Below, in pieces: positions 28,905 through 64,000 of a DNA stretch of 64,000 bases. Made by a program: the position numbers and the translations under genes. The stretch spans positions 24,046,283-24,110,282 of the forward strand of contig OY979716.1 of assembly GCA_963855995.1 (NCBI GenBank). Reading direction: 5' to 3'. The notes under the pieces were generated by a model. That model saw only the letters and a program-made list of their open reading frames with translations. It ran no database searches and had not been told where the DNA came from. How positions within the stretch are numbered: position 1 is the first letter of the stretch; each line of letters opens with the position of its first letter. The DNA is from Muricea muricata (taxonomy: Eukaryota; Cnidaria; Anthozoa; Malacalcyonacea; Plexauridae).

Positions 28905-29248
28905 TTAATTTAAGTAAAGTACTTCCACTTCGGATGGGGTGAAGCGGAAGCTCCCGGCAAGCAGGGAGTTTGTGTTGGCTTCTCCGTAAGTGTAACCATG
29001 TGGGAGTTTGTAGGCGCCACCAAAATATGTGTGGGAGCTTCATCCTGCGTCACTGGCAATGTACAAGTCACCACCCCGAAAGTAACCCCAACCGAGTGTT
29101 GGTCCCATACCAAATATTGGTCCATAACCGTAATTACGGTAAATTGCTCCCTGACCACTCTCATGTTTCAGCGTAGACTTGAAAGGCGCCAGACCATCGT
29201 TATTACGCAGAGAATAAATGAAAGATCCTGGAGCACGCGCATAACCAC
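28905..29248 (-). CDS. TLDc domain, terminal exon (in-frame TGA)
   Basis: The acceptor AG at 29,249-29,250 follows a T-rich tract. The exon reads [47 protein letters not shown], then TGA (29,040-29,042). In the same frame it continues [29 protein letters not shown] and PSEVEVLY, to TAA at 28,905. These are the successive conserved blocks of the C-terminal half of TLDc. Between YGPIFG and GGDLYI an extra ten or so residues ([11 protein letters not shown]) arise from a tandem duplication of about 17 bp. The TGA cuts off the last third of this exon's coding part. The frame remains open on both sides, so the lesion is recent, is recoded, or is an error. Confidence 0.8.
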
Positions 29249-44200: not shown

Positions 44201-47200
44201 GGTCTATAAAAACAACGATGCATTCACATTTTTCACTTATGCCATTTCAATTGAAGGCTCAAAGATCATTATGTCATTAACTAATAATTTGAGTATAATA
44301 TAAACGTATAATTTTAGATTAGTGCGCCTTAACTATGAGAATTATTTAATGTGCCATTGATCAAATAATTTTTTTTACAGTAACATCAAGTTAATGTTAC
44401 GTGATTTTTTATTCAAGCAACTGTATTCTTGAGGTTTATATATTGTGTTCTATAAATGTTTGTCATGCAATTGAAAAGAATAGACACATTTAGCGATCTA
44501 AGAAAATCGAAACGAAAATCTACGTCCACAGTTGAAAGGAGCGCTCCAAAATTAGTATAACTGCAGAGTTTCATGAAAAACATTATAATATCAGGAAATG
44601 GCCATGCGAAGTTTGTAGAGTTCATATACAACGGAAGTGGGTGTTCAATTACTTCCGCCGCGTGAACAGCTACATAAATAGTAAAATGGTCATAATATTT
44701 GCATTTTATAGTATTTCTTCTTAAAAGTTTGCGACTACACTAATTTTGTTGCCTTCTTTCCAACTGTGGTGATAGGTTTTCCGTTTCTTCCCTTGAAAAG
44801 CGCAGATACATGCACGCGTAGCAAGCTATTTTTGCGAGGCTATTTTGCAGGTGCAGTTACATGATCCTTGAGTGATTGTACAGTTAGCATTGGTGTGGGA
44901 TTCATTGGTTGAGTTGTTTTGACATTCGTCTATATCTACAATAATAGTGTATTAGAAATATCATCTTAATATAGGCTGAAGCAAAAACCATTCTTTTTCA
45001 GTTTGTGCGAAACGCAGTTCATGATTTGAAACAATCAGGGATCTTATAGTTCATTTGTGTTGAGACACTGCGTGTCCAGAAGCTCTAAATAACAATATAA
45101 TCAGCTCATTTCCCAGTATTCCAGTCACTGTTTACAAAAGCTGTCTTGATAATTAACGATGTCTTTTATACATCTGGATGCGTACTCTTATACAGGATCA
45201 CAATTATACTAGAACCTTGTGTCAAATAATTTTAACTGAACATTCGACAATACACTTCTTATACTTGTTAAGCTTTGTGCAAACACGACGTAAATTTATT
45301 ATTGCAGTAATAAATTTACGTGGTGTTTCCACAAAGCTTAACAAGTATATTGTATTCACCATGCAAACGTACAAGAAACTTAATACACTTCTTGGAAAAA
45401 ATAAAGTTGAAGTACGCGTACGTTTGCACCGAAAGTATAGATACTTGCCCCAGATCACTATGGCGGCAAGCTGCATTCAGACGGGTGAAATAGAGGGGCT
45501 ATTTGCCCAGGCTAAAGGCCCCTTCTACTCCAAATAATAACTTAATAAAAATTAAAAAAGTGAGTTGTGTCCATGGGAAAGGTCCCCAAAATGATTTTTG
45601 CCGCCCCATTTTGACCGCTCCTGCATGATGGTGCCACAAACAAAGGAATAACCCAAATGTTGATATGGTTTTCACTTCAGTTAAGTTCCTTACGAAAACT
45701 CTCTAAGTTTATCATAATCTTGTGCAAATGCCCACGATAAAACTTTAACTACTGCAATACCAAATGTATAAAATATTTTTCATGTTGATACACGAGTGGA
45801 AATTGAAAAAACGTGAAATTGGGCGGAAATACGAAACCCGCATCGCGATGTTCCAAATGCATCAATACCAGAAAAATGCTTTATATTTTTTTGTAAATAC
45901 AACAAACATTGTAAAATAACTTTAACAGGTCAGAAGAGGTTTTATCTACACGGCTATTAGCGAATGACCGTTTCGAGTTTACAAATGCTTTAAATTATAA
46001 TTGCCTATTGGCCAAGGAATTTATGTTCGAGTCTCTATAGCACAGATTGCAGAGAGCGTGCGAATAAATAACTTGTTCAGCCAACGTCTCGTAGCTAGTC
46101 TATTATCGTGACCGCGCATCCTCCATGTGTCGTCTTGTGTAAAAGAGTCCGTCAAAATCTAATAGTAGGAATCAGGAATCCACTAGTTCGAATATAGAAT
46201 CCACTTCTATGAGTCAAAAATCTGGTATCCTTTTTGGATTCCTCTTACACGTCACAATCAAAACGACCTTGATCAACGAAGGTATTTACCAAACAGAAAA
46301 TATTTTTAACAACTTAACTTGTGCTAAGAGTTCTATGTCAACTACTTAAGGAATGATAGTTTGCATAAAACGTCATGGCGGCTATATTGGAGGAATTACA
46401 CAAAAGAATATGTTATTTGCTCCAATGTTGGATCCGTTCGGCGTGGGTGGCTGACATAGTCTTGCGCATATCGAGAGATTGATTGCAAATCAAGAATTGA
46501 AAACGTCTATCAGTGATGTAAAGTTTAGAAATTTCTACAGACATTCAGAAATTTTAAAAGACATTTCATACCTGTACAATTAATCCCGTCTCCATGGAAA
46601 CCCTTTTTGCAGTTGCAGTTATATGATCCTGCAGTGTTTGTGCATTTAGCATTGATGTGGCATTCATTGGTCGAATCGTTTGAACATTCGTCTGTATCTA
46701 TAATAGTGTATTAGATCTTTCAGTGGACGAGAACTATCAGCGTAATTGAGCTGCTGAAGAAAACACTCCTATCTGAGGACTTCCAAGGATGGTTTGCCGA
46801 TCAGTTGCATTGGGACATGCTACCATGCACAGTATAGAGAATAGACAGTAGGGCCACTGAATTGAAGTTCGTGTCTCTACACATATTACATTACGCATTT
46901 AATTATGAATATGCCAGCCACTCAATCGCATTTTCTGGCCAATAAACTGCCCTGTTGGGTAGCCTTTCTTCCCATTCCATATACTGTGATGTAACAATTG
47001 TTAAGGGGCTAAAAAATAGAAGGTTTAATGAATAGACGTTAGAGGGCCTTACACACGCAGGTGTTAAGCGATGAATTGCAATGCATTGTGGGAAACATGT
47101 AGGAAAAATTTACTTTGTATTTATATGTGTTGAAAAAAGCGTAACGTCTATTTAAAATACGTACCCTATGCTACTGAATTAAAGATGTGATGTTCGTCAT

Positions 47201-50200
47201 GTGAAATTTAGTAATTTTCCTCAAACAGCAAATTTGAAAGACATTTTATACCTGTACAATTATTCCCGTCTCCATCGAAACCAAGTTTGCAGTTGCAGTT
47301 ATATGATCCTGCAGTGTTTGTGCAGGTAGCATTGATGTGGCATTCATTAGTCGAGTCGTTTGAACATTCGTCTATATCTACAATAGTGTATTAGATCTTT
47401 CAGTGGATGAGAAATACCAGCGTGATTGAGCTGCTGAAGAAAACACTCCTGTCTGAGGACTTCCAAGGATCAATTGCATTGGGACATGCTACCATGCACA
47501 GCATAGGGAATAAACAGTAGAGGCACTGAATTGAAGTTCGTGTCACTACGCATATTACATTACGCATCTAATTACGAATATGCCAGCCACTCAATCGCAT
47601 TTTCTGGCCAATAAACTGCCCTGTTGCGTAGCCTTACTTCCCATTCCATATACTGTGATGCAACGATTGTTAAGGGGGCAAAAAATAAAAGCTTTAGTCA
47701 ATAGACGTTAGAGGCCCTTACTCACGCAAGTGTTAAACGATAAATTGCAATGCATTGAGGGAAACATGTAGAAAATATTTACTTTCTATTTATATGCATT
47801 GAAAATCGCGTAACGACTATTTAAAATACGTACCCTATGCTACTGAATTAAAGATTTGATGTTCGTCATGTGAAATTTAGTAATTTTCCCCAAACAGCAA
47901 ATTTGAAAGACATTTTATACCTGTACAATTATTCCCGTCTCCATCGAAACCAAGTTTGCAGTTGCAGTTATATGATCCTGCAGTGTTTGTGCAGGTAGCA
48001 TTGATGTGGCATTCATTGGTCGAGTCGTTCGAACATTCGTCTGTATCTGCAATAGTGTATTAGTCTTTCAGTGGATGAGAACTACCAGCGTAATTGAGGT
48101 GCTGGAGAAAACACTCCTATGTGAGGACTTCCGAGGATGGTTTGCAGATCAATTGCATTGGGACATGCTACCATGCACAGTATAGCGAATAGAGAGTAGA
48201 GGCACTGAATTGAAGGTCGTGTCTCTACGCATATTACATAACGCATCTAACTACTAATATGCCAGCCACTCAATCGCATTTTCTGGCCAATAAACTGCCC
48301 TGTTGGGTAGCCTTACTTCCCATTCCATATACTATGATGCAACGATTGTTAAGGGGGCAAAAAATAAAAGCTTTAGTCAATAGACGTTAGAGGGCCTTAC
48401 TCACGCCAGTGTTAAACGATAAATTGCAATGCATTGTGGGAAACATGTAGAAAATATTTACTTTCTATTTATATGCATTGAAAATCGCGTAACGTCTATT
48501 TGAAATACGTACCCTATGCTACTGAATTGAAGATGTGATGTTCGTCATGTGAAATTTAATAATTTTTCCCAAACAGCAAATTTGAAAGACATTTTATACC
48601 TGTACAATTATTCCCGTCTCCATCGAAACCAATTTTGCAGTTGCAGTTATATGATCCTGCAGTGTTTGTGCAAGTAGCATTGATGTGGCATTCATTGGTC
48701 GAGTCGTTTGAACATTCGTCTGTATCTACAATAGTGTATTAGTCTTTCAGTGGATGAGAACTACCAGCGTAATTGAGGTGCTGGAGAAAACACTCCTATG
48801 TGAAGACTTCCGAGGATGGTTTGACGATCAATTGCATTGGGACATGCTACCATGCACAGTATAGCGAATAGAGAGTAGAGGCACTGAATTGAAGGTCGTG
48901 TCTCTACGCATATTACATTACGCATCTAATTACTAATATGCCAGCCACTCAATCGCATTTTCTGGCCAATAAACTGCCCTGTTGGGTAGCCTTACTTCCC
49001 ATTCCATATACTGTGATGCAACGATTGTTAAGGAGACAAAAAATAAAAGCTTTAGTCAATAGACGTTGAGGGCCTTACTCACGCCAGTGTTAAACGATAA
49101 ATTGCAATGCATTGTGGGAAACATGTAGAAAATATTTACTTTCTATTTATATGCATTGAAAATCGCGTAACGTCTATTTGAAATACGTACCCTATGCTAC
49201 TGAATTGAAGATGTGATGTTCGTCATGTGAAATTTAATAATTTTTCCCAAACAGCAAATTTAAAAAACATTTTATACCTGTACAATTATTCCCGTCTCCA
49301 CCGAAACCAATTTTGCAGCTGCAGTTATATGATCCAGCAGTGTTTGTGCAGGTAGCATTCATGTGGCATTCATTGGTCGAGTCGTTTGAACATTCGTCTA
49401 TATCTACAATAGTGTATTAGATCTTTCAGTGGATGAGAAATACCAGCGTGATTGAGCTGCTGAAGAAAACACTCCTGTCTGAGGACTTCCAAGGATCAAT
49501 TGCATTGGGACATGCTACCATGCACAGCATAGGGAATAAACAGTAGAGGCACTGAATTGAAGTTCGTGTCACTACGCATATTACATTACGCATCTAATTA
49601 CGAATATGCCAGCCACTCAATCGCATTTTCTGGTCAATAAACTGCCCTGTTGCGTAGCCTTACTTCCCATTCCATATACTGTGATGCAACGATTGTTAAG
49701 GGGGCAAAAAATAAAAGCTTTAGTCAATAGACGTTAGAGGCCTTTACTCACGCCAGTGTTAAACGATAAATTGCAATGCATTGAGGAAAACATGTAGAAA
49801 ATATTTACTTTCTATTTATATGCATTGAAAATCGCGTAACGACTATTTAAAATACGTACCCTATGCTACTGAATTAAAGATTTGATGTTCGTCATGTGAA
49901 ATTTAGTAATTTTCCCCAAACAGCAAATTTGAAAGACATTTTATACCTGTACAATTATTCCCGTCTCCATCGAAACCAAGTTTGCAGTTGCAGTTATATG
50001 ATCCTGCAGTGTTTGTGCAGGTAGCATTGATGTGGCATTCATTGGTCGAGTCGTTCGAACATTCGTCTGTATCTACAATAGTGTATTAGTCTTTCAGTGG
50101 ATGAGAACTACCAGCGTAATTGAGGTGCTGGAGAAAACACTCCTATGTGAGGACTTCCGAGGATGGTTTGCAGATCAATTGCATTGGGACATGCTACCAT

Positions 50201-53200
50201 GCACAGTATAGCGAATAGAGAGTAGAGGCACTGAATTGAAGGTCGTGTCTCTACGCATATTACATAACGCATCTAACTACTAATATGCCAGCCACTCAAT
50301 CGCATTTTCTGGCCAATAAACTGCCCTGTTGGGTAGCCTTACTTCCCATTCCATATACTGTGATGCAACGATTGTTAAGGGGGCAAAAAATAAAAGCTTT
50401 AGTCAATAGACGTTAGAGGGCCTTACTCACGCCAGTGTTAAACGATAAATTGCAATGCATTGTGGGAAACATGTAGAAAATATTTACTTTCTATTTATAT
50501 GCATTGAAAATCGCGTAACGTCTATTTGAAATACGTACCCTATGCTACTGAATTGAAGATGTGATGTTCGTCATGTGAAATTTAATAATTTTTCCCAAAC
50601 AGCAAATTTGAAAGACATTTTATACCTGTACAATTATTCCCGTCTCCATCGAAACCAAGTTTGCAGTTGCAGTTATATGATCCTGCAGTGTTTGTGCAAG
50701 TAGCATTGATGTGGCATTCATTGGTCGAGTCGTTTGAACATTCGTCTGTATCTACAATAGTGTATTAGTCTTTCAGTGGATGAGAACTACCAGCGTAATT
50801 GAGGTGCTGGAGAAAACACTCCTATGTGAAGACTTCCGAGGATGGTTTGACGATCAATTGCATTGGGACATGCTACCATGCACAGTATAGCGAATAGAGA
50901 GTAGAGGCACTGAATTGAAGGTCGTGTCTCTACGCATATTACATTACGCATCTAATTACTAATATGCCAGCCACTCAATCGCATTTTCTGGCCAATAAAC
51001 TGCCCTGTTGGGTAGCCTTACTTCCCATTCCATATACTGTGATGCAACGATTGTTAAGGAGGCAAAAAATAAAAGCTTTAGTCAATAGACGTTAGAGGGC
51101 CTTACTCACGCCAGTGTTAAACGATAAATTGCAATGCATTGTGGGAAACATGTAGAAAATATTTACTTTCTATTTATATGCATTGAAAATCGCGTAACGT
51201 CTATTTGAAATACGTACCCTATGCTACTGAATTGAAGATGTGATGTTCGTCATGTGAAATTTAATAATTTTTCCCAAACAGCAAATTTAAAAAACATTTT
51301 ATACCTGTACAATTATTCCCGTCTCCACCGAAACCAATTTTGCAGCTGCAGTTATATGATCCAGCAGTGTTTGTGCAGGTAGCATTCATGTGGCATTCAT
51401 TGGTCGAGTCGTTTGAACATTCGTCTATATCTACAATAGTGTATTAGATCTTTCAGTGGATGAGAAATACCAGCGTGATTGAGCTGCTGAAGAAAACACT
51501 CCTGTCTGAGGACTTCCAAGGATCAATTGCATTGGGACATGCTACCATGCACAGCATAGGGAATAAACAGTAGAGGCACTGAATTGAAGTTCGTGTCACT
51601 ACGCATATTACATTACGCATCTAATTACGAATATGCCAGCCACTCAATCGCATTTTCTGGCCAATAAACTGCCCTGTTGCGTAGCCTTACTTCCCATTCC
51701 ATATACTGTGATGCAACGATTGTTAAGGGGGAAAAAAATAAAAGCTTTAGTCAATAGACGTTAGAGGCCCTTACTCACGCCAGTGTTAAACGATAAATTG
51801 CAATGCATTGAGGGAAACATGTAGAAAATATTTACTTTCTATTTATATGCATTGAAAATCGCGTAACGACTATTTAAAATACGTACCCTATGCTACTGAA
51901 TTAAAGATTTGATGTTCGTCATGTGAAATTTAGTAATTTTCCCCAAACAGCAAATTTGAAAGACATTTTATACCTGTACAATTATTCCCGTCTCCATCGA
52001 AACCAAGTTTGCAGTTGCAGTTATATGATCCTGCAGTGTTTGTGCAGGTAGCATTGATGTGGCATTCATTGGTCGAGTCGTTCGAACATTCGTCTGTATC
52101 TACAATAGTGTATTAGTCTTTCAGTGGATGAGAACTACCAGCGTAATTGAGGTGCTGGAGAAAACACTCCTATGTGAGGACTTCCGAGGATGGTTTGCAG
52201 ATCAATTGCATTGGGACATGCTACCATGCACAGTATAGCGAATAGAGAGTAGAGGCACTGAATTGAAGGTCGTGTCTCTACGCATATTACATTACGCATC
52301 TAATTACGAATATGCCAGCCACTCAATCGCATTTTCTGGCCAATAAACTGCCCTGTTGGGTAGCCTTACTTCCCATTCCATATACTGTGATGCAACGATT
52401 GTTAAGGGGGCAAAAAATAAAAGCTTTAGTCAATAGACGTTAGAGGCCCTTACTCACGCCAGTGTTAAACGATAAATTGCAATGCATTGAGGGAAACATG
52501 TAGAAAATATTTACTTTCTATTTATATGCATTGAAAATCGCGTAACGACTATTTAAAATACGTACCCTATGCTACTGAATTAAAGATTTGATGTTCGTCA
52601 TGTGAAATTTAGTAATTTTCCCCAAACAGCAAATTTGAAAGACATTTTATACCTGTACAATTATTCCCGTCTCCATCGAAACCAAGTTTGCAGTTGCAGT
52701 TATATGATCCTGCAGTGTTTGTGCAGGTAGCATTGATGTGGCATTCATTGGTCGAGTCGTTCGAACATTCGTCTGTATCTACAATAGTGTATTAGTCTTT
52801 CAGTGGATGAGAACTACCAGCGTAATTGAGGTGCTGGAGAAAACACTCCTATGTGAGGACTTCCGAGGATGGTTTGCAGATCAATTGCATTGGGACATGC
52901 TACCATGCACAGTATAGCGAATAGAGAGTAGAGGCACTGAATTGAAGGTCGTGTCTCTACGCATATTACATAACGCATCTAACTACTAATATGCCAGCCA
53001 CTGAATCGCATTTTCTGGCCAATAAACTGCCCTGTTGGGTAGCCTTACTTCCCATTCCATATACTGTGATGCAACGATTGTTAAGGGGGCAAAAAATAAA
53101 AGCTTTAGTCAATAGACGTTAGAGGGCCTTACTCACGCCAGTGTTAAACGATAAATTGCAATGCATTGTGGGAAACATGTAGAAAATATTTACTTTCTAT

Positions 53201-56200
53201 TTATATGCATTGAAAATCGCGTAACGTCTATTTGAAATACGTACCCTATGCTACTGAATTGAAGATGTGATGTTCGTCATGTGAAATTTAATAATTTTTC
53301 CCAAACAGCAAATTTAAAAAACATTTTATACCTGTACAATTATTCCCGTCTCCACCGAAACCAATTTTGCAGCTGCAGTTATATGATCCAGCAGTGTTTG
53401 TGCAGGTAGCATTCATGTGGCATTCATTGGTCGAGTCGTTTGAACATTCGTCTATATCTACAATAGTGTATTAGATCTTTCAGTGGATGAGAAATACCAG
53501 CGTGATTGAGCTGCTGAAGAAAACACTCCTGTCTGAGGACTTCCAAGGATCAATTGCATTGGGACATGCTACCATGCACAGCATAGGGAATAAACAGTAG
53601 AGGCACTGAATTAAAGTTCGTGTCACTACGCATATTACATTACGCATCTAATTACTAATATGCCAGCCACTCAATCGCATTTTCTGGCCAATAAACTGCC
53701 CTGTTGGGTAGCCTTATTTCCCATTCCATATACTGTGATGCAACGATTGTTAAGGAGGCAAAAAATAAAAGCTTTAGTCAATAGACGTTGAGGGCCTTAC
53801 TCACGCCAGTGTTAAAGGATAAATTGCAATGCATTGTGGGAAACATGTAGAAAATATTTACTTTCTATTTATATGCATTGAAAATCGCGTAACGTCTATT
53901 TGAAATACGTACCCTATGCTACTGAATTGAAGATGTGATGTTCGTCATGTGAAGTTTAATAATATTTCCCAAACAGCAAATTTAAAAGACATTTTATACC
54001 TGTACAATTATTCCCGTCTCCACCGAAACCAATTTTGCAGCTGCAGTTATATGATCCAGCAGTGTTTGTGCAGGTAGCATTCATGTGGCATTCATTGGTC
54101 GAGTCGTTTGAACATTCGTCTATATCTACAATAGTGTATTAGATCTTTCAGTGGATGAGAAATACCAGCGTGATTGAGCTGCTGAAGAAAACACTTCTGT
54201 CTGAGGACTTCCAAGGATCAATTGCATTGGGACATGCTACCATGCACAGCATAGGGAATAGACAGTAGAGGCACTGAATTAAAGTTCGTGTCACTACGCA
54301 TATTACATTACGCATCTAATTACGAATATGCCAGCCACTCAATCGCATTTTCTGGCCAATAAACTGCCCTGTTGCGTAGCCTTACTTCCCATTCCATATA
54401 CTGTGATGCAACGATTGTTAAGGGGGCAAAAAATAAAAGCTTTAGTCAATAGACGTAAGAGGGCCTTACTCACGCCAGTGTTAAACGATAAATTGCAATG
54501 CATTGTGGGGAACATGTAGAAAGTATTTACTTTCTATTTATATGCATTGAAAATCCCGTAACGTCTATTTAAAATACGTACCCTATGCTACTGAGTTGAA
54601 GATGTGATGTTCGTCATGTGAAATTTAGTAATTTTCCCCAAACAGCAAATTTGAAAGACATTTTATACCTGTACAATTATTCCCATCTCCATCAAAACCA
54701 ATTTTGCAGTTGCAGTTATATGATCCTGCAGTGTTTGTGCAGGTAGCATTGATGTGGCATTCATTGGTCGAGTCGTTTGAACATTCGTCTGTATCTACAA
54801 TAGTGTATTAGATCTTTCAGTGGATGAGAAATACCAGCGTGATTGAGCTGCTGAAGAAAACACTCCTGTCTGAGGACTTCCAAGGATCAATTGCATTGGG
54901 ACATGCTACCATGCACAGCATAGGGAATAAACAGTAGAGGCACTGAATTAAAGTTCGTGTCACTACGCATATTACATTACGCATCTAATTACTAATATGC
55001 CAGCCACTCAATCGCATTTTCTGGCCAATAAACTGCCCTGTTGGGTAGCCTTATTTCCCATTCCATATACTGTGATGCAACGATTGTTAAGGAGGCAAAA
55101 AATAAAAGCTTTAGTCAATAGACGTTGAGGGCCTTACTCACGCCAGTGTTAAAGGATAAATTGCAATGCATTGTGGGAAACATGTAGAAAATATTTACTT
55201 TCTATTTATATGCATTGAAAATCGCGTAACGTCTATTTGAAATACGTACCCTATGCTACTGAATTGAAGATGTGATGTTCGTCATGTGAAGTTTAATAAT
55301 ATTTCCCAAACAGCAAATTTAAAAGACATTTTATACCTGTACAATTATTCCCGTCTCCACCGAAACCAATTTTGCAGCTGCAGTTATATGATCCAGCAGT
55401 GTTTGTGCAGGTAGCATTCATGTGGCATTCATTGGTCGAGTCGTTTGAACATTCGTCTATATCTACAATAGTGTATTAGATCTTTCAGTGGATGAGAAAT
55501 ACCAGCGTGATTGAGCTGCTGAAGAAAACACTTCTGTCTGAGGACTTCCAAGGATCAATTGCATTGGGACATGCTACCATGCACAGCATAGGGAATAAAC
55601 AGTAGAGGCACTGAATTGAAGTTCGTGTCACTACGCATATTACATTACGCATCTAATTACGAATATGCCAGCCACTCAATCGCATTTTCTGGCCAATAAA
55701 CTGCCCTGTTGCGTAGCCTTACTTCCCATTCCATATACTGTGATGCAACGATTGTTAAGGGGGAAAAAAATAAAAGCTTTAGTCAATAGACGTTAGAGGC
55801 CCTTACTCACGCCAGTGTTAAACGATAAATTGCAATGCATTGAGGGAAACATGTAGAAAATATTTACTTTCTATTTATATGCATTGAAAATCGCGTAACG
55901 ACTATTTAAAATACGTACCCTATGCTACTGAATTAAAGATTTGATGTTCGTCATGTGAAATTTAGTAATTTTCCCCAAACAGCAAATTTGAAAGACATTT
56001 TATACCTGTACAATTATTCCCGTCTCCATCGAAACCAAGTTTGCAGTTGCAGTTATATGATCCTGCAGTGTTTGTGCAGGTAGCATTGATGTGGCATTCA
56101 TTGGTCGAGTCGTTCGAACATTCGTCTGTATCTACAATAGTGTATTAGTCTTTCAGTGGATGAGAACTACCAGCGTAATTGAGGTGCTGGAGAAAACACT

Positions 56201-59200
56201 CCTATGTGAGGACTTCCGAGGATGGTTTGCAGATCAATTGCATTGGGACATGCTACCATGCACAGTATAGCGAATAGAGAGTAGAGGCACTGAATTGAAG
56301 GTCGTGTCTCTACGCATATTACATTACGCATCTAATTACGAATATGCCAGCCACTCAATCGCATTTTCTGGCCAATAAACTGCCCTGTTGGGTAGCCTTA
56401 CTTCCCATTCCATATACTGTGATGCAACGATTGTTAAGGGGGCAAAAAATAAAAGCTTTAGTCAATAGACGTTAGAGGCCCTTACTCACGCCAGTGTTAA
56501 ACGATAAATTGCAATGCATTGAGGGAAACATGTAGAAAATATTTACTTTCTATTTATATGCATTGAAAATCGCGTAACGACTATTTAAAATACGTACCCT
56601 ATGCTACTGAATTAAAGATTTGATGTTCGTCATGTGAAATTTAGTAATTTTCCCCAAACAGCAAATTTGAAAGACATTTTATACCTGTACAATTATTCCC
56701 GTCTCCATCGAAACCAAGTTTGCAGTTGCAGTTATATGATCCTGCAGTGTTTGTGCAGGTAGCATTGATGTGGCATTCATTGGTCGAGTCGTTCGAACAT
56801 TCGTCTGTATCTACAATAGTGTATTAGTCTTTCAGTGGATGAGAACTACCAGCGTAATTGAGGAGCTGGAGAAAACACTCCTATGTGAGGACTTCCGAGG
56901 ATGGTTTGCAGATCAATTGCATTGGGACATGCTACCATGCACAGTATAGCGAATAGAGAGTAGAGGCACTGAATTGAAGGTCGTGTCTCTACGCATATTA
57001 CATAACGCATCTAACTACTAATATGCCAGCCACTGAATCGCATTTTCTGGCCAATAAACTGCCCTGTTGGGTAGCCTTACTTCCCATTCCATATACTGTG
57101 ATGCAACGATTGTTAAGGGGGCAAAAAATAAAAGCTTTAGTCAATAGACGTTAGAGGGCCTTACTCACGCCAGTGTTAAACGATAAATTGCAATGCATTG
57201 TGGGAAACATGTAGAAAATATTTACTTTCTATTTATATGCATTGAAAATCGCGTAACGTCTATTTGAAATACGTACCCTATGCTACTGAATTGAAGATGT
57301 GATGTTCGTCATGTGAAATTTAATAATTTTTCCCAAACAGCAAATTTAAAAAACATTTTATACCTGTACAATTATTCCCGTCTCCACCGAAACCAATTTT
57401 GCAGCTGCAGTTATATGATCCAGCAGTGTTTGTGCAGGTAGCATTCATGTGGCATTCATTGGTCGAGTCGTTTGAACATTCGTCTATATCTACAATAGTG
57501 TATTAGATCTTTCAGTGGATGAGAAATACCAGCGTGATTGAGCTGCTGAAGAAAACACTCCTGTCTGAGGACTTCCAAGGATCAATTGCATTGGGACATG
57601 CTACCATGCACAGCATAGGGAATAAACAGTAGAGGCACTGAATTAAAGTTCGTGTCACTACGCATATTACATTACGCATCTAATTACTAATATGCCAGCC
57701 ACTCAATCGCATTTTCTGGCCAATAAACTGCCCTGTTGGGTAGCCTTATTTCCCATTCCATATACTGTGATGCAACGATTGTTAAGGAGGCAAAAAATAA
57801 AAGCTTTAGTCAATAGACGTTGAGGGCCTTACTCACGCCAGTGTTAAAGGATAAATTGCAATGCATTGTGGGAAACATGTAGAAAATATTTACTTTCTAT
57901 TTATATGCATTGAAAATCGCGTAACGTCTATTTGAAATACGTACCCTATGCTACTGAATTGAAGATGTGATGTTCGTCATGTGAAGTTTAATAATATTTC
58001 CCAAACAGCAAATTTAAAAGACATTTTATACCTGTACAATTATTCCCGTCTCCACCGAAACCAATTTTGCAGCTGCAGTTATATGATCCAGCAGTGTTTG
58101 TGCAGGTAGCATTCATGTGGCATTCATTGGTCGAGTCGTTTGAACATTCGTCTATATCTACAATAGTGTATTAGATCTTTCAGTGGATGAGAAATACCAG
58201 CGTGATTGAGCTGCTGAAGAAAACACTTCTGTCTGAGGACTTCCAAGGATCAATTGCATTGGGACATGCTACCATGCACAGCATAGGGAATAGACAGTAG
58301 AGGCACTGAATTAAAGTTCGTGTCACTACGCATATTACATTACGCATCTAATTACGAATATGCCAGCCACTCAATCGCATTTTCTGGCCAATAAACTGCC
58401 CTGTTGCGTAGCCTTACTTCCCATTCCATATACTGTGATGCAACGATTGTTAAGGGGGCAAAAAATAAAAGCTTTAGTCAATAGACGTAAGAGGGCCTTA
58501 CTCACGCCAGTGTTAAACGATAAATTGCAATGCATTGTGGGGAACATGTAGAAAGTATTTACTTTCTATTTATATGCATTGAAAATCCCGTAACGTCTAT
58601 TTAAAATACGTACCCTATGCTACTGAATTGAAGATGTGATGTTCGTCATGTGAAATTTAGTAATTTTCCCCAAACAGCAAATTTGAAAGACATTTTATAC
58701 CTGTACAATTATTCCCATCTCCATCAAAACCAATTTTGCAGTTGCAGTTATATGATCCTGCAGTGTTTGTGCAGGTAGCATTGATGTGGCATTCATTGGT
58801 CGAGTCGTTTGAACATTCGTCTGTATCTACAATAGTGTATTAGATCTTTCAGTGGATGAGAAATACCAGCGTGATTGAGCTGCTGAAGAAAACACTCCTG
58901 TCTGAGGACTTCCAAGGATCAATTGCATTGGGACATGCTACCATGCACAGCATAGGGAATAAACAGTAGAGGCACTGAATTAAAGTTCGTGTCACTACGC
59001 ATATTACATTACGCATCTAATTACTAATATGCCAGCCACTCAATCGCATTTTCTGGCCAATAAACTGCCCTGTTGGGTAGCCTTATTTCCCATTCCATAT
59101 ACTGTGATGCAACGATTGTTAAGGAGGCAAAAAATAAAAGCTTTAGTCAATAGACGTTGAGGGCCTTACTCACGCCAGTGTTAAAGGATAAATTGCAATG

Positions 59201-60850
59201 CATTGTGGGAAACATGTAGAAAATATTTACTTTCTATTTATATGCATTGAAAATCGCGTAACGTCTATTTGAAATACGTACCCTATGCTACTGAATTGAA
59301 GATGTGATGTTCGTCATGTGAAGTTTAATAATATTTCCCAAACAGCAAATTTAAAAGACATTTTATACCTGTACAATTATTCCCGTCTCCACCGAAACCA
59401 ATTTTGCAGCTGCAGTTATATGATCCAGCAGTGTTTGTGCAGGTAGCATTCATGTGGCATTCATTGGTCGAGTCGTTTGAACATTCGTCTATATCTACAA
59501 TAGTGTATTAGATCTTTCAGTGGATGAGAAATACCAGCGTGATTGAGCTGCTGAAGAAAACACTTCTGTCTGAGGACTTCCAAGGATCAATTGCATTGGG
59601 ACATGCTACCATGCACAGCATAGGGAATAGACAGTAGAGGCACTGAATTAAAGTTCGTGTCACTACGCATATTACATTACGCATCTAATTACGAATATGC
59701 CAGCCACTCAATCGCATTTTCTGGCCAATAAACTGCCCTGTTGCGTAGCCTTACTTCCCATTCCATATACTGTGATGCAACGATTGTTAAGGGGGCAAAA
59801 AATAAAAGCTTTAGTCAATAGACGTAAGAGGGCCTTACTCACGCCAGTGTTAAACGATAAATTGCAATGCATTGTGGGGAACATGTAGAAAGTATTTACT
59901 TTCTATTTATATGCATTGAAAATCCCGTAACGTCTATTTAAAATACGTACCCTATGCTACTGAATTGAAGATGTGATGTTCGTCATGTGAAATTTAGTAA
60001 TTTTCCCCAAACAGCAAATTTGAAAGACATTTTATACCTGTACAATTATTCCCATCTCCATCAAAACCAATTTTGCAGTTGCAGTTATATGATCCTGCAG
60101 TGTTTGTGCAGGTAGCATTGATGTGGCATTCATTGGTCGAGTCGTTTGAACATTCGTCTGTATCTACAATAGTGTATTAGATCTTTCAGTGGATGAGAAC
60201 TACCAGCGTGATTGAGCTGCTGAAGAAAACACTCCTATCTGAGGACTTCCAAGGATGGCTTGCAGATGAATTGCATTGGGACATGCTACCATGCACAGCA
60301 TAGGGAATAGACAGTAGGGCCACTCAATTGAAGTTCGTGTCTCTACAAAAATCGCATTACGCATCTCATTCCCATTATGCCAGCCAGTCAATCTCATTTT
60401 TTGGCCAATAAACAGCGCTCTTGGGTAGCCTTACTTCCCATTCTATGTACTGTGATGTAAACATTGGTAAGAGGACTAAAAATTAAAATCTTTAATCAAT
60501 AGACGTTAGAGGGCCTTACTCACCCCAGACGTAAACGATGAATTGCAATTGCAATGCATTGTGGGAAACATGAAGAAAAATTTACTTTGCATTTATATGC
60601 ATTGAAAACCGCATAACGTCCATTTAAAAAAATGTACCTTATGCTAATGAATTAAAGATGTGATATTCGTCATGTAAAATTTAGTATTTTTCCCCAAACA
60701 GCAAATTTGGAACACATTTCATAACTGTACATTTATTCCCGTCTCCATGGAAACCAATTTTGCAGCTGCAGTTATATGATCCTGCAGTGTTTGTGTAGGT
60801 AGCATTGATGTGGCATTCATTGGTCGAGTCGTTTGAACATTCGTCTGCAT
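28905..60850 (-). CDS. multi-exon cbEGF-array/TLDc protein gene (3' part)
   Basis: Gene model assembled from splice phases. Each EGF exon ends with G before a GT donor and starts with AT after an AG acceptor, so joining two gives an Asp codon and a phase 1-1 series. The EGF series can splice to the first TLDc exon (starting TT, giving Val) and that to the second (A|GT, giving Ser). The predicted protein is secreted or cell-surface: a long run of 42-residue calcium-binding EGF domains, then one C-terminal TLDc domain. EGF-TLDc architectures occur in cnidarian proteins as far as I recall. The N-terminus and signal peptide lie outside the window. The TGA in the last exon makes the function of this copy uncertain. 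Confidence 0.65.
29378..30582. mobile_element. hAT-type non-autonomous element (1,205 bp)
   Basis: The ends CAAGGGCGTAGGAAG and (complement) CAGCGGGCGTAAGAAG are inverted. The 8-bp duplication CGCTTAAG is at 29,370-29,377 and 30,583-30,590. Subterminal GGTGCCCTTTTT blocks occur in both halves. About 430 bp belong to this element; the centre is occupied by a nested TTAA-target transposon. Confidence 0.85.
29594..30367. mobile_element. TTAA-target transposon nested in hAT element (774 bp)
   Basis: The ends GGGGGTCCACTACT are inverted, and TTAA flanks at 29,590-29,593 and 30,368-30,371. piggyBac or Kolobok type. No transposase frame is apparent. It inserted after the surrounding hAT element. 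Confidence 0.8.
30604..31056. mobile_element. possible inverted-repeat element
   Basis: AGCGACTTGTGTCACT at 30,604-30,619 is exactly inverted at 31,041-31,056, with weaker similarity inward. No target duplication was found, so this may be a simple inverted repeat. Confidence 0.4.
30825..30981. mobile_element. MITE with GAGAGGTTCAG ends
   Basis: GAGAGGTTCAG at left and CTGAACCTCTC at right, with imperfect inverted similarity for about 40 bp (blocks CCTCTACTGCTACCT and AGGTAGCCATAGTGGTAGAGG). ATTA occurs on both sides. It is nested in the preceding inverted-repeat pair. Confidence 0.6.
31485..32250 (+). pseudogene. 5'-truncated non-LTR retrotransposon (LINE) fragment
   Basis: Reads the C-terminal RT region of Jockey/CR1-like LINEs: [20 protein letters not shown], then after a one-base shift [37 protein letters not shown] and [17 protein letters not shown], followed by stops. 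The 3' region (GCCTATTGGAAGGTCACTTT, then TTGTAAATAG) looks like a LINE 3' UTR. The 5' end is missing, as usual for such copies. Confidence 0.75.
32840..33150. repeat. degenerate tandem repeat (about 45-50 bp)
   Basis: Blocks like CTTTCTATGCGTACTCGATC followed by AACAAAACGGCTGTATA recur four to six times with many differences. Flanking copies of TCTGGCAAGTGG occur near 32,809 and 32,975. Confidence 0.6.
33288..33760. repeat. rearranged exon-like palindrome
   Basis: About 33,290-33,390 is inverted relative to 33,618-33,710 (blocks ACTACATCCATCGTAACA and TGTTACGATGGATGTAGT). In addition, AGGGGTTTCTGCATGTAATG occurs in direct orientation at about 33,410 and 33,722. Within the right arm an ATG frame reads [20 protein letters not shown] and ends near a TTTTCAG. 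The pattern suggests a gene fragment duplicated, inverted and broken. Confidence 0.6.
34200..34395 (-). repeat. diverged copy of the 1.4-1.7 kb repeat
   Basis: The reverse complement aligns with about 1,450-1,640. Shared blocks include AAACAACGCTTTGTTT-like, CTGACACT, TATGCT and AAAAGTTCGAAA. Frames in both copies encode similar peptides ([17 protein letters not shown] here, MLIHEYKPEFQFKKSSK there). No TTAA-type terminus is visible. Confidence 0.55.
34784..35032 (-). CDS. TLDc domain, N-terminal exon
   Basis: The acceptor at 35,033-35,034 (TTTAG) follows a pyrimidine tract. The exon reads [60 protein letters not shown] and [15 protein letters not shown], ending at donor GTAAGT. The RASRDGW, CDGK-PT and FGGY motifs are the signature blocks of the first half of TLDc. 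The phase fits both neighbours. Cysteines in TACWR and SNCDG suggest an extracellular variant rather than the cytosolic oxidation-resistance proteins. Confidence 0.85.
35033..37329. other. intronic/noncoding stretch
   Basis: Lies between the TLDc N-terminal exon and the EGF array. A poly-G run (~35,317-35,330) and a poly-C run (~35,769-35,782) could be tips of a damaged MITE, but I could not match ends or target duplications. No coding exon was recognised. Confidence 0.4.
37330..38320 (+). pseudogene. decayed transposase-like gene with a retained intron
   Basis: Three frames in order read [86 protein letters not shown], and [20 protein letters not shown]. An intron-like 115-bp gap (37,954-38,068, GTATAA...TTTCAAAG) splits the last two. 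The order resembles multi-copy proteins of animal transposons (possibly EnSpm/CACTA-like). That assignment is from memory and uncertain. Frameshifts and stops show it is dead. Confidence 0.5.
38630..39450 (-). pseudogene. reverse-transcriptase relic split by a MITE
   Basis: Minus strand, in order: [36 protein letters not shown], then LPLITSL, catalytic box [43 protein letters not shown] and LGSRE. Beyond the MITE at 38,714-38,929 it continues [21 protein letters not shown] at the active site and the flanking blocks indicate a non-LTR-type RT. The element family was not identified. Multiple shifts and stops. Confidence 0.6.
38714..38929. mobile_element. hAT-type MITE (216 bp) inside RT relic
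   Basis: Begins CAGTGGCGTAG and ends CTACGCTACTG, with target duplication CTCCTCCA at 38,706-38,713 and 38,930-38,937. Inverted arms share TTTAGTCCCGCTATGC. The right terminal segment is duplicated (GACTAAAT...GGGACTACGCTACTG occurs twice). Confidence 0.85.
39808..40066. repeat. left arm of FB2
   Basis: About seven imperfect 19-bp units, then an inner block with ATCATCATTTTTTATC. A direct duplication (GTTTTCATTGTTTGATGATT) follows just inside, near 40,066 and 40,111. Confidence 0.85.
40823..40989. mobile_element. hAT-type MITE (167 bp) inside FB2
   Basis: The ends CAGGGGCCGCCGAAGATCG and (complement) CAGCGGCCGCGGAAGATCG are inverted, with target duplication AGCAAAGC at 40,815-40,822 and 40,990-40,997. 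The long hairpin has a poly-G/poly-C block and ATATTCATATATTC-like sequence, as in the MITE at 11,482. The two are probably related subfamilies. Confidence 0.9.
41090..41830 (-). pseudogene. MULE-like transposase C-terminal relic with SWIM finger
   Basis: The minus strand reads [20 protein letters not shown] and TCSDCP, then after a one-base shift and a stop [20 protein letters not shown]. This makes a C-x-C...C-x-H SWIM zinc finger. The open frame from 41,644 continues to a tail with [46 protein letters not shown] and LRALGL. MULE transposases carry a C-terminal SWIM finger. The catalytic core is absent from the element. Confidence 0.6.
41932..42233. repeat. right arm of FB2
   Basis: Mirror of the left arm with about ten units of CGCGTTTTATCC(T)nC type, longer than the left arm. 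Units vary in T-run length. Confidence 0.85.
42662..44212 (+). pseudogene. Ty3/gypsy relic with internal deletion (gag joined to integrase)
   Basis: A gag frame (43,063-43,344) reads [20 protein letters not shown] and [24 protein letters not shown] knuckles follow at 43,600-43,735 ([14 protein letters not shown] and [14 protein letters not shown]). About 30 bp later the sequence jumps to the integrase end (from ~43,763): [20 protein letters not shown] and [20 protein letters not shown]. Protease, RT, RNase H and the integrase core are missing. The upstream TGTAACAGGCGCAG (42,662) may begin the 5' LTR. No clear 3' LTR was found. Confidence 0.75.
42819..42831 (+). promoter_or_regulatory. gypsy relic primer-binding site (tRNA-Ser type)
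   Basis: TGGCGACGAGGAT is complementary to the 3' end of a eukaryotic tRNA-Ser (ATCCTCGTCG plus CCA, from memory). It lies between the putative 5' LTR and gag. Confidence 0.6.
44213..44825. other. intronic stretch, nothing recognised
   Basis: A fragment near 44,382 (AGTAACATCAAGTTAATG) resembles the presumed gypsy LTR start at 42,672 and may be a remnant of the 3' LTR. No exon was recognised. Confidence 0.3.
44826..44935 (-). pseudogene. damaged cbEGF exon at the 3' end of the array
   Basis: Acceptor AG at 44,936-44,937, then [28 protein letters not shown] and degenerate codons ending TAG (44,826-44,828). The second cysteine is Ser, and the sequence after the fifth cysteine no longer matches. 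Because all neighbouring introns are phase 1, skipping it would keep the frame. Alternatively it could be an alternative terminal exon producing a form without TLDc. Confidence 0.7.
45262..45352. repeat. near-perfect hairpin in EGF gene intron
   Basis: Arms of about 43 bp (TACTTGTTAAGCTTTGTG... and complement CACAAAGCTTAACAAGTA) surround a very short loop. Each includes TAAATTTATTA. It may be a MITE; no target duplication was set. It begins close to where similarity between the two outer introns ends. Confidence 0.8.
45353..46571. other. intron between damaged and first intact EGF exon
   Basis: About 44,940-45,230 is homologous to 60,880-61,180, so both ends of the array keep an older intron type. 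The rest (to 46,560) shows nothing recognised. Confidence 0.5.
46572..46697 (-). CDS. cbEGF exon 1 of array (lowest coordinate)
   Basis: The most diverged intact copy: CHINAKC and [11 protein letters not shown]. Its unit keeps a longer intron (680 bp spacing). Confidence 0.9.
47252..47377 (-). CDS. cbEGF exon 2, alpha type with DIDEC
   Basis: Alpha body ([11 protein letters not shown]) but starts with DIDEC like beta copies, so it is probably a mosaic. The next unit is 669 bp away. Confidence 0.93.
47921..48046 (-). CDS. cbEGF exon 3, alpha type
   Basis: DTDEC...KLGFD. The acceptor is GCAG rather than GTAG. Confidence 0.94.
48600..48725 (-). CDS. cbEGF exon 4, KIGFD variant
   Basis: DTDEC with KIGFD. 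ACT replaces ACC in the NATC block (silent). Confidence 0.94.
49278..49403 (-). CDS. cbEGF exon 5, beta type
   Basis: [24 protein letters not shown]. Gly replaces the Asp of alpha after GF. Confidence 0.94.
49947..50072 (-). CDS. cbEGF exon 6, alpha type
   Basis: Starts the second 2.03-kb trimer. Apart from the acceptor context it equals exon 3. Confidence 0.94.
50626..50751 (-). CDS. cbEGF exon 7, alpha type
   Basis: KLGFD with the silent ACT change seen in exon 4: an alpha/exon-4 mosaic. Confidence 0.94.
51305..51430 (-). CDS. cbEGF exon 8, beta type
   Basis: Equivalent to exon 5 one trimer earlier (2,027 bp offset). Confidence 0.94.
51974..52099 (-). CDS. cbEGF exon 9, alpha type
   Basis: Has its 4,032-bp-offset twin at 56,006. 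Confidence 0.94.
52653..52778 (-). CDS. cbEGF exon 10, alpha type
   Basis: Twin at 56,685 (4,032 bp). Confidence 0.94.
53332..53457 (-). CDS. cbEGF exon 11, beta type
   Basis: Twin at 57,364 (4,032 bp). Flanking intron variant AAATTTAAAAAACATT. Confidence 0.94.
54000..54125 (-). CDS. cbEGF exon 12, beta type
   Basis: Twin at 58,032. Flanking intron variant AAATTTAAAAGACATT. Confidence 0.94.
54669..54794 (-). CDS. cbEGF exon 13, gamma type
   Basis: [16 protein letters not shown] with GAT and GGG codon changes. Twins at 58,701 and 60,038. Confidence 0.94.
55337..55462 (-). CDS. cbEGF exon 14, beta type
   Basis: Twin at 59,369. Confidence 0.94.
56006..56131 (-). CDS. cbEGF exon 15, alpha type
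   Basis: Twin at 51,974. Confidence 0.94.
56685..56810 (-). CDS. cbEGF exon 16, alpha type
   Basis: Twin at 52,653. Its neighbouring intron has one private change (GGAGCTGG for GGTGCTGG). Confidence 0.94.
57364..57489 (-). CDS. cbEGF exon 17, beta type
   Basis: Twin at 53,332. Confidence 0.94.
58032..58157 (-). CDS. cbEGF exon 18, beta type
   Basis: Twin at 54,000. Confidence 0.94.
58701..58826 (-). CDS. cbEGF exon 19, gamma type
   Basis: Twin at 54,669. Lies one dimer (1,337 bp) from 60,038. Confidence 0.94.
59369..59494 (-). CDS. cbEGF exon 20, beta type
   Basis: Twin at 55,337. Also 1,337 bp from 58,032. Confidence 0.94.
60038..60163 (-). CDS. cbEGF exon 21, gamma type
   Basis: The last intact copy. 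The intron on its higher-coordinate side is more diverged (687 bp spacing). Confidence 0.94.
60725..60850 (-). pseudogene. damaged cbEGF exon at the 5' end of the array
   Basis: DADEC start, then the third cysteine is Tyr (NATYTNT). The donor reads CAG|TT instead of CAG|GT. The end reads FHGDGNKCT. Loss of a disulphide cysteine plus loss of the donor suggests it is skipped; its phase symmetry would keep the frame. Confidence 0.8.
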
Positions 60851-61172: not shown

Positions 61173-61900
61173 TGTTAAACGACCCTCTTCTTCGTTTTCT
61201 TTACTTTATTAGTCCACGGGATCGTCGGGCCGTTAGGGGGACAGCTTCAATCATTAACCCAAGATAACATACATGTAAGACCAATTTTCAATATCTTGTA
61301 TTATTTATTATATACTTCATCTATTTCATCGTTCTTTCGTTAACTCTTCAACTATTATGCTACACTGTCATACTATATCTAATTCGTGCGTGCAATCGTT
61401 TTTTATCCCCTCTGTGCTACAATGTTTCTTTGTTTATTGTCTGGTGCCGATCAATGGTTCATTGTGCGTGCTACGTGCGTGCGCATATGATAATTATATT
61501 AAACGGTGTACTGTTGCAATTACTGTATTACATATCTCCCTTCTTTAGTTGAAAACCTCCTGGTTTTCATTAAAACATAGCTAGAAAGTTCCACCATAAA
61601 GTGTTTATCCTTTTCTCTTCAGCCAGAATATTGCACTTTCTCTAACTTCTTGTATAATGCTCGTGATGGTACTGTTGATCTTCATTTGTTCGTTATCTGT
61701 TCTTGATCATATAATATCTGCAGGTGCGGACAAATACTATCCCTAGTTCGCAAGACATGCCGACGAAGACAAGAACCGGAAAGATGGACAATGACGTATT
61801 TGGTTGTGTCATGGGCGGGACATAACAACAAAACATAACAACAAAACTACAGACTGATTATTACTGTACACAAATGAACAAGGACAATACACTCTCACCA
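61173..61900 (-). repeat. putative 3' LTR of Ty3/gypsy element
   Basis: On the plus strand it starts TGTTAAACGACCC, exactly where intron similarity to 45,226 ends, and finishes CTCTCACCA. In element orientation it would begin TGGTGAGAGTG and end TTTAACA, about 728 bp. The other LTR lies outside the window, so identity cannot be tested. Confidence 0.45.
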
Positions 61901-61910
61901 TTCTCTTTCC
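61901..61910 (-). other. putative gypsy polypurine tract
   Basis: In element orientation GGAAAGAGAA lies directly before the proposed LTR start TGG. Confidence 0.45.
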
Positions 61911-62113
61911 ACAAATGACAAACAGATCATACCGTAATCACTACAATATCATAACTATTATGTGTCACTCCGGCGGAGAACGGGAAAAAATCGAGCTAAA
62001 TTATTCGTCGAGTGGGAAAAAAAAGTCGCATCGACAATAAAAAGCGCGAACACCCTACAATTTTGGTCAAAAGATCCGAACAGTGAAAGCATAGAATTGT
62101 CAATTTGTCGTTG
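61911..62113 (-). other. gypsy 3' untranslated region
   Basis: Between the pol stop and the purine tract. No coding content. Confidence 0.5.
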
Positions 62114-64000
62114 CTAATTGTTGTTTGTTTGTACAACGTCCGTCTCGTCGACCCATGAATTATGTTCGGGACCATACCCTTCCCACTTAACTAGAATTTG
62201 TTTCTTACCCTTGCGTGTGCGGTGTTTAAGTACTTGTTCGATATTATACAAAGTATCTGGTGAATCTGGTGTGTCTGAGGCGGCTGGCTCATGTTGGGCG
62301 TCCCGTGTGTGTTGCATGGGGTGGTAATCACTAAAGCTATCGGCAGGTAACTCTTCATCTGGAATAGCATGATCGGAATTAGATGGCGTTCCCTCGAGTG
62401 TGTTACTTGGGCGCAGGTCAGGACTAAAATATGGTTTGATCCGGTTTGCGTGCACGGTGACAGACACGAGGCGGTTGTCGCATGTTCGTAATTTGTAATG
62501 GACAGGAGAGCATTTTTTGACAATGCGATATGGTCCGTGCCAATGGTGCATGAGTTTACGCGACAATCCTTTCTTTGTTTTCGGTGTGTAAACCCATACT
62601 TTATCACCAATCATGAACTTGGGGTCACGAGCAGAGCGGTCATAAATCTCTTTCATCTTCTGCTGAGCACGTTGAATGTTTTCGCGAGCAATAGCATGGG
62701 TTTCTTCTATAGTTTGTACGATGCGTGCACGATGTTCGTGTATCGAGTTCGACTCATTTCGTCGAGGTAAAAGGCTGACATCTACAGGTAGTCGAGGTTC
62801 GCGACCATAAAGAAGAAAGAAAGGACTCTCACCAGTTGTATCGTGAGGACTAACGCGGTATGCAAAAAGGATTGCTGCTAAGTGGCTGTCTTTTTGGTCA
62901 CTACTAACGTACATAGATATGGACTGGCAGAGGGTGTGGTTGAAGCGTTCAACAATACCGTCTGTTTGAGGATGGTACGCAGTCGTGTTTACTTTCTTTG
63001 TGTTAAGTAGATCGCATACTGACCGTACTAAAGTAGAGAGAAAGTTAGTTCCTCTGTCGGAAAGAAGAGTCCGCGGAGCCCCATGACGTGCCAGACTCTT
63101 CTCCACGAGAAGGTTCGCGATAGTTCGAGCGTCGATATTTGGAACAGCAAATGCTTCAGGCCACCGAGTTAAATATTCAGTGAAGACGACAACGTAGCGG
63201 TTTCCGGCGTTGGAACAGGGAAAGGCCCCTAAACAGTCGACAGCAACACGATCGAAAGCATTATCTACAGGTATAGGGAGAAGTGGTGCGCGATGACGAT
63301 TGGGAGGCGACTTTTTCATGGCACAATCAACACAACTCTTACACCATCGATCGATATCTCGAAACACGTTTCTCCAGTAGTAGCGCGTACGGATCTTAGC
63401 GTAAGTTTTCTGAGGTCCAAGGTGACCAGCGATAATATCATCGTGAGCCCAGGCTAGAATTTCATGTTTTAATGCCTCAGGAACAACTAGTTGTGGATAA
63501 ACTGCTTGCGGTCTACGCCTACGAGGTGTCCAAAGCGAGAAAAGTAGGCCGTTGTCATCTAGGTAAAATTTGTCACCCTGTAAAAGGAAGGAACGTGCCT
63601 TATTCGGATTGGCTGGCAGCTGCTGTGTTTCAATATAGGAAATAAGATCAGCGAGCTCAGTGTCGTTTCGTTGAAAATCACGAATCCGGTCAACTGGGAC
63701 GCCAGAGTTGTGGTATAACAACGACGAGACAGTGCATCAGCGTCTGAGTTCTCGCTTCCCGCTTTGTAAACAATAGTGAAATCGTACTGCTGGATAAACA
63801 GGGCCCAACGTGCTAAGCGACCATTGGGATCCTTGATGGACATTAGCCAACGAAGCGCATTATGATCAGTATAAATGGTAAATTTCTGACCATAAAGGTA
63901 ATTACAAAATTTCTTGATTCCTTCAACTACGGCGAGTGCCTCTAGTTCAGTAGTGCTGTAATTACGTTCGGCAGGATTCAGATCCCGTCCACCATAAGCT
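62114..64000 (-). CDS. Ty3/gypsy chromovirus-type pol, 3' part (frameshifted, cut by window end)
   Basis: From the window edge: RNase H (NYSTTELEALAVVEGIKKF, YTDHNALRW), tether DADALSRR, then a one-base shift at about 63,720 into a 535-codon frame. That frame has an HHCC zinc domain (HLGPQKTYAKIR through CKSCVDC), integrase core Asp in VAVDCLG, Asp in LLSDRGTNF and Glu in DGIVERFNH, and a GPYRIVKK-type C-terminal domain. It ends in a chromodomain, YNIEQVLKHRTRKGKKQILV then KWEGYGPEHNSWVDE. The chromodomain places it among chromoviruses and is known to guide integration to chromatin marks. Protease and RT lie outside. Apart from the shift it looks intact and fairly young. Confidence 0.93.

Follow-up and report, generated by a model that had tools for sequence, protein, structure and literature searches.

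Tandem cbEGF exons with duplicated introns in a candidate PAN-EGF-cbEGF-TLDc gene of the anthozoan Muricea muricata, and the probable growth of the array by misaligned exchange

Relation to described repeat systems

The human LPA KIV-2 repeat, as a passage of PMC11462820 presents it, is an intron-containing repeat of the same kind as one that we describe here from a 64,000-nucleotide stretch of the genome of the anthozoan Muricea muricata (assembly GCA_963855995.1, contig OY979716.1, positions 24,046,283 to 24,110,282 of the forward strand), henceforth called the window. At positions 46572..60163 its minus strand carries an array of 21 intact exons, U1 to U21, for calcium-binding epidermal growth factor-like (cbEGF) domains. 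We consider it probable, at roughly 80%, that this array forms the repetitive part of a single gene in a family with the predicted architecture PAN-EGF-(cbEGF)n-TLDc, which has itself been multiplied, and that the array grew by misaligned exchange between its units. Like KIV-2, the array is composed of near-identical tandem units of exon plus intron, U1-U20 being 91.5-100% alike (190 pairs, mean 95.9%); it differs in that the repeated domain of LPA is a kringle, whereas the unit here is a 0.67-kb, one-exon cbEGF unit, and in that the variation seen here is between paralogues (5, 7, 8 and 22 units) of one assembly. The type of repeat is already known from LPA KIV-2, and what is distinctive of the present case is the crossover junction, together with the series of array lengths found among the paralogues.

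Long runs of EGF modules in extracellular proteins are also a feature of Drosophila dumpy and other giant EGF-rich matrix proteins, dumpy having 78 coding exons and many EGF modules according to part of PMC2930355; in the window, by contrast, the copies are near-identical, each occupies one exon, and PAN and TLDc domains stand at the flanks. The fibrillins likewise have cbEGF domains in tandem, and their calcium-binding and hydroxylation consensus is also that of the array (a section of PMC3306419), but the window gene has a C-terminal TLDc domain, and no TB or hybrid domain appeared among the Pfam matches of the exons scanned. The solved structures closest in sequence are those of uromodulin (6zs5 and 6tqk; 115 residues, E about 1e-26), adhesion receptor E5, NELL, Notch and fibrillin. 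Uromodulin combines a few EGF domains with a ZP module, and its resemblance to the array is limited to the EGF domain. Searches of the literature on EGF, TLDc and PAN proteins and on cnidarians gave no description of a PAN-EGF-cbEGF-TLDc protein among the matches listed, which is not proof of its absence.

Structure of the cbEGF array

The initial annotation had proposed a tandem run of 126-nt cbEGF exons, each with its own duplicated intron, and all 21 were recovered on the minus strand. Numbered 5' to 3' on that strand, they extend from U1 (60163-60038) to U21 (46697-46572), with their 5' ends at 60163, 59494, 58826, 58157, 57489, 56810 and 56131 (U1-U7), 55462, 54794, 54125, 53457, 52778, 52099 and 51430 (U8-U14), and 50751, 50072, 49403, 48725, 48046, 47377 and 46697 (U15-U21). 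Every one of them is exactly 126 nt long, has phase 1-1 boundaries, an AG acceptor and a GT donor (the exon ending in G|GT), and codes for a 42-residue domain with six cysteines at the spacing 7-5-8-1-10, a DxDEC motif and the Asn-hydroxylation pattern CxNx4YxC; the exon features originally described are thereby confirmed in 21/21 copies, as is the encoding of a run of cbEGF domains. The part before Cys1 of the cbEGF consensus, stated in a section of PMC3306419 as (D/N)x(D/N)(E/Q)xm(D/N)xn(Y/F), is likewise present in 21/21. In a two-domain stretch of the array the Pfam profiles EGF_3 and EGF_CA score above cut-off, PF07645 reaching 64.3 bits (curated cut-off 27). A motif scan, with patterns that we take to be those of O-fucose sites and sequons, found a putative O-fucose motif in 20/21 exons and 41 N-glycosylation sequons (x = Cys excluded).

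The exon-to-exon spacing is 668-680 bp, and the intron has been copied along with the exon, giving a repeat unit of about 670 bp. A search of the window with the whole unit (Basic Local Alignment Search Tool, BLAST) recovers the 21 array units, one further full unit (U0) and one partial relic, so that a chance origin of the array is not an issue. Only 7 distinct exon DNA sequences and 5 distinct proteins occur among U1-U21 (8 exons and 17 whole units among U0-U21), and hence the 21 exons do not amount to 21 independent tests of integrity. Three paralogous arrays that were read, P1, P2 and P3, have 7, 5 and 8 units respectively, against 22 for the window including U0, and 20/20 of their exons are 126 nt long with six cysteines. 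The proposal that the array changes in length by 42-residue steps is borne out between these paralogues.

U0, the 22nd unit, spans 60861-60175 ahead of U1 and is the counterpart of the first units of P1 and P3. Its exon (60725..60850, minus strand) is damaged: Cys3 is changed to Tyr, leaving five cysteines, and the donor reads ACAGTTATG where the other units have ACAG|GTAT, a change also carried by P3_0, the first P3 unit. Use of the nearest GT as donor would shift the frame; as the exon is symmetric, it could be skipped. The earlier statement that 21 copies contain no frame break holds for U1-U21 and fails once U0 is counted. U0 and the relic described next are absent from the initial annotation, as are four features taken up below: the higher-order repeats, the hybrid-unit junction, the TGA of the last exon and the 5' exons past the window. 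The relic, a partial cbEGF exon at 44841..44936 (minus strand; BLAST match 44943-44842) with Cys2 changed to Ser, sits within a 1.8-kb stretch (about 44486-46287) that is missing from P1 at the matching place. The upstream introns of U0 and the relic are about 70% identical.

Growth of the array and selection on its exons

The array is a nested structure of repeats. U1-U2 and U3-U4 show 0 differences over 1337 bp, and the twelve units U2-U13 (51442..59505, minus strand) consist of a six-unit block, U2-U7, and its copy, U8-U13, of 4032 bp each, which differ at 3 of 4032 sites. These two comparisons support the young expansion put forward in the initial annotation. Three-unit blocks beginning at U5, U11, U14 and U17 show 2 to 28 differences per about 2027 sites, and exon types and intron types are shuffled relative to each other along the array. 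The terminal units have their closest relatives in other arrays: U0 is 96.5% identical to the first unit of P1 and 95.9% to that of P3 but 88.4% to its own interior, and U21 is 94.9-97.7% identical to the last units of P1-P3 but 85.5% to its own interior. Between first and last units lie 20 interior units in the window, 5 in P1 and 6 in P3. Judged by these identities, the ends of the array are old and its middle is young.

The interior units of the window are 95.9% alike, as compared to 91.9, 92.1 and 94.6% between window units and those of P1, P2 and P3, respectively. Within P2 and P3 the identity is 90.6% and 94.0%, which is not above that between arrays. Since the P2 and P3 units are no more alike within than between arrays, homogenisation, as far as these comparisons indicate, is a feature of the window array and not of all arrays; the suggestion of homogenisation in the initial annotation agrees with the window array and disagrees with P2 and P3.

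Blocks as similar as these could in part be an assembly error, in which two haplotypes or repeated reads were joined in tandem. The 3 differences in 4032 sites and the exact identity of U1-U2 and U3-U4 would be expected of such an artefact, and equal-scoring family copies are present at C4:13.94 and C4:14.41 Mb. We nevertheless regard it as unlikely, given that the nested repeat levels are of unlike divergence (trimers 0.1-1.4%, units up to 8.5%) and that a common hybrid junction, along with paralogous arrays of other lengths, fits stepwise growth better than one false join.

This junction is the principal evidence for the way in which the array grew. Comparison of the interior units part by part (exon, left intron, right intron) gives a recurring succession of matches to P3 units 2 to 6, and 7/7 hybrid units (U1, U3, U7, U9, U13, U16 and U19) show the same switch. 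Of the 12 informative sites that lie no further than unit position 386, between 9 and 12 agree with P3_5, and of the 17 from position 512 onward, 16 agree with P3_2 (an insertion or deletion being counted as one site); one site between the two positions fits neither. The switch point is situated well within the intron, the junction in U7 falling at 55630..55756 (minus strand), with a P3_5-like left part and a P3_2-like right part. Because the hybrid units switch parent inside the intron, growth by unequal crossing-over or equivalent misaligned repair, with intron breakpoints, appears well supported, P3 probably resembling the ancestor. In the founding exchange the left part of a P3_5-like unit would have been joined to the right part of a P3_2-like unit, with a gain of about three units and one hybrid unit, and later exchanges would have duplicated blocks of three units (about 2.0 kb) and of six (4.0 kb). 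As the exon is symmetric (1-1) and the breakpoint lies in the intron, the products of such exchanges would stay in frame, each adding whole 42-residue domains.

A different process, gene conversion limited to the exons, could in principle keep the domains identical while the introns evolve independently. One exon is indeed common to U2, U4, U5, U8, U10, U11, U14 and U17, whose introns are as much as 27 substitutions and 3 insertions or deletions apart. In our reading, however, the common block also extends over the 3' half of the intron before the exon and over about 35 nt after it, and the hybrid units show a single switch along the intron with no short patches; we therefore consider exon-limited conversion quite improbable.

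The initial annotation had also taken the intact copies as suggestive of selection. As proof of selection, intact frames in 21 copies were rejected as underpowered, the 7 distinct exons of the window array with their about 11 mutations having zero damaging changes at P = 0.066, and this argument was replaced by a test over four arrays. Within U1-U20 there are 11 variable exon sites, 5 nonsynonymous and 6 synonymous (P = 0.035), and nonsynonymous sites are variable at 5 of 94.5 versus 80 of 541 intron sites (P = 0.013). Without U20 the counts become 5 nonsynonymous to 5 synonymous (P = 0.07), with P = 0.18 for sites versus intron and P = 0.081 for the lack of damage; the two main exon types, differing by 5 nonsynonymous and 2 synonymous changes, look neutral. 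Over the four arrays, with U0 removed, 41 exons display 35 distinct changes (23 nonsynonymous and 12 synonymous). None of the 35 is damaging, that is, hits a Cys, Asp1, Asp3, Glu4, the hydroxylation Asn or the Tyr, or creates a new stop, versus 23% expected (P = 9e-5). In the 37 full units nonsynonymous sites are variable at 15 of 98, versus 195 of 520 in introns (P = 1.3e-5), and exons have 0 insertions or deletions versus 15 gap patterns in introns (3.6 expected, P = 0.026); the synonymous excess alone is not significant over the four arrays (P = 0.077). All these P values are rough, sites in related copies not being independent. On the whole, the counts point to purifying selection that keeps the cbEGF fold in the family, which is clear over four arrays and suggestive for the window copy; the original inference from intact copies fails as argued and succeeds with the paralogues included.

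The surrounding gene, its family and its present state

The array can be placed in a gene of about 64 kb that runs from past the window's right end down to 28.9 kb. TLDc exon 1 (34784..35032, minus strand, 249 nt) scores 36.1 bits with PF07534 by itself and, being of phase 1-1, can join U21 in frame. TLDc exon 2, the last exon (28905..29248, minus strand), ends at a natural TAA; joined to exon 1 in phase 1, with X at an internal stop, it raises the PF07534 score to 60 bits, while pieces of exon 2 alone gave no Pfam match. A frameshift in this region (28.9-29.3 kb) was considered and rejected in favor of a single frame with one TGA. On the other side, 28 kb past the window end and on the same strand as the array, a PAN exon (C1:24138848-24139051; PAN_1 24.3 bits, cut-off 21.4) and an EGF exon (C1:24138471-24138602; EGF profiles below cut-off only) were located with the corresponding exons of a compact paralogue as queries, to which they are 82% and 89% alike; both are open, with compatible phases 1-0-0-1. 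The next 60 kb upstream on the chromosome (2.5 kb of it N) showed no cbEGF exon. The idea of a lost 5' end, which came from this cbEGF-free 60 kb, was dropped when the compact paralogue's exons led to the PAN and EGF exons. If spliced as predicted, the transcripts would, less surely, encode an extracellular protein with a calcium-stabilised stalk of 21 cbEGF domains (882 residues) between a PAN/EGF head and TLDc, with U0 skipped and TLDc shortened by the TGA; the window gene may accordingly be one with an unusually long extracellular stalk.

The compact paralogue, at C1:39.71 Mb, combines one PAN and one EGF exon with two cbEGF and two TLDc exons, and the family is abundant in the 453-Mb assembly of 74 contigs. 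Counting exons apart, there are at least 145 TLDc matches (150 of 158 candidates scored), 13 of which lie on the minus strand at C1:23.39-25.98 Mb, that of the window gene included. At least 34 further matches to the PAN exon reach 72% identity over 64/68 residues or more (150 of 281 candidates scored), 2/34 with a stop, and at least 12 other loci have 2-8 cbEGF exons of equal cysteine spacing, a lower bound from the best 150 of 1868 candidates. A neighbouring paralogue (C1:24172013-24190641) carries TLDc exon 2 as two pieces separated by 12.6 kb, as though an insertion had divided it, and equal-scoring family copies at C4:13.937-13.945 and C4:14.412-14.420 Mb, about 475 kb apart, represent either a recent segmental duplication or a false one of the assembly. 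In two coral genomes tandem duplicates make up almost a third of genes, and EGF_CA families are commoner in the Pocillopora than the Porites genome, according to part of PMC10236652.

Two further cbEGF arrays were encountered in the genome. Array A (C1:43055001-43155000) comprises 117 cbEGF exons in alternating DINEC/DIDEC pairs and multi-kb blocks 93-99% alike; by a simple scan 111 of the 117 have six cysteines and no stop, and decayed copies lie at its low-coordinate end. It resembles the window array in being a repeated exon-plus-intron cbEGF array and differs in its domain sequence and two-exon unit, and the 100 kb examined contain no TLDc match. At C10:12705001-12775000 about 96 diverse cbEGF exons lie on one strand (array about 12.705-12.771 Mb), with a multi-exon block of about 6.9 kb repeated several times and up to 98.7% alike over 16 kb. 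Nothing was concluded from a splice-site matrix trained on array A and another array, B, which was overfitted, the training introns being homologous to one another; it gave the acceptor of TLDc exon 1 a score of -21.8.

The TGA lies in frame within TLDc exon 2 (29040..29042, minus strand), and the frame beyond it is open to the natural stop of the exon. There are 129 matches to TLDc exon 2; 36 others are near full-length at 63% identity or more, with a stop in 0/36, and the remaining 92, partial or more distant, include 9 with a stop. Nonsense-mediated decay usually spares messages whose stop lies in the last exon; with the TGA so placed, the message would probably be stable and the protein would have a truncated TLDc. 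Such a stop may mark a recent pseudogene, a null allele or a copy that is truncated yet still in use, or it may be a sequencing error. The first of these would have a nonsense mutation in the TLDc exon followed by satellite-like growth of the array, its exons being intact by descent from a few intact ones. Besides the TGA that none of the 36 close paralogous exons has, the damaged U0 and relic, the transposons around the array and the little power of exon integrity within the array (P = 0.066) agree with this, and broken members do exist, P1 showing no match to TLDc exon 2 in the interval 24.19-24.49 Mb. Against it, the other recognised exons (PAN, EGF, 21 cbEGF and TLDc exon 1) are open with compatible phases, the open frame past the TGA implies a young change, an allele or an error, and a stop so placed usually escapes decay. 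We hold pseudogenisation to be possible, at rather less than even odds, and prefer the repeat region of a family gene grown by misaligned exchange.

Several points weigh against this preferred explanation. As regards growth, the hybrids have misfits (1 to 3 of the 12 left sites, save for 0 in U16; 1 of the 17 on the right), the ancestor is represented by P3, whose unit P3_2 or P3_5 might itself be the recombinant, the first unit of P2, 89.1% identical to U0, is not its counterpart, and the near-identical blocks may owe something to assembly. The identities within P2 and P3 and the marginal selection within the window array alone, both given above, belong here as well. As regards the gene, U0 is broken, and the uninterrupted TLDc frame by which the family is recognised is absent from the window gene on account of the last-exon TGA, which none of the 36 close paralogous exons has; its TLDc exon 2 is also about 24 nt longer than the paralogous exons. 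A hydrophobicity search at locus L037 only yielded no candidate signal-peptide exon, the splice sites of the array units score lower than those of two other EGF arrays (on the overfitted reference), and a long terminal repeat (LTR) element of about 12 kb occupies the intron before U0.

The 3' part of this element, of gypsy/chromo type, lies at 61180..64000 (minus strand) in the window and continues beyond its end, to about 73.2 kb; 302 bp of its two LTRs are 96% alike, and the compact paralogue's intron matches the flanks on both sides. Elsewhere in the window, a copia-type retrotransposon frame of 1370 residues (gag, integrase, RVT_2) is open at 15228-19340 (minus strand). A minisatellite with a 19-bp unit (about GCGGAAAAAGGGATAAAAC) occurs at 39859-39991 and 42008-42198 as two oppositely oriented stretches, separated by about 2 kb, that may be the ends of one mobile element, and a 31-bp repeat at 6660-6752 and 8033-8216, in opposite orientations 1.3 kb apart, resembles element arms.

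Assemblies and gene models can easily collapse arrays such as that of the window and the one at C1:43.06-43.15 Mb, or lengthen them falsely. Should the gene be expressed, the question arises as to what a stalk of 21 domains does beyond one of 2 to 8 domains. A speculative reading, to which we attach a low probability, is that the family serves for recognition or adhesion, its members, and perhaps alleles, being distinguished chiefly by the length of a near-identical cbEGF stalk, with unequal crossing-over in introns being a standing generator of length between the PAN head and the TLDc end; were this true, the window gene would stand at the far end of a 2-to-21-domain series in one genome. Such a natural series of array lengths among the paralogues of one genome makes length change measurable by long reads, and the locus offers a case of protein growth by whole domains, in which a symmetric exon and an intron breakpoint are accompanied by a hybrid unit that would mark the founding exchange.

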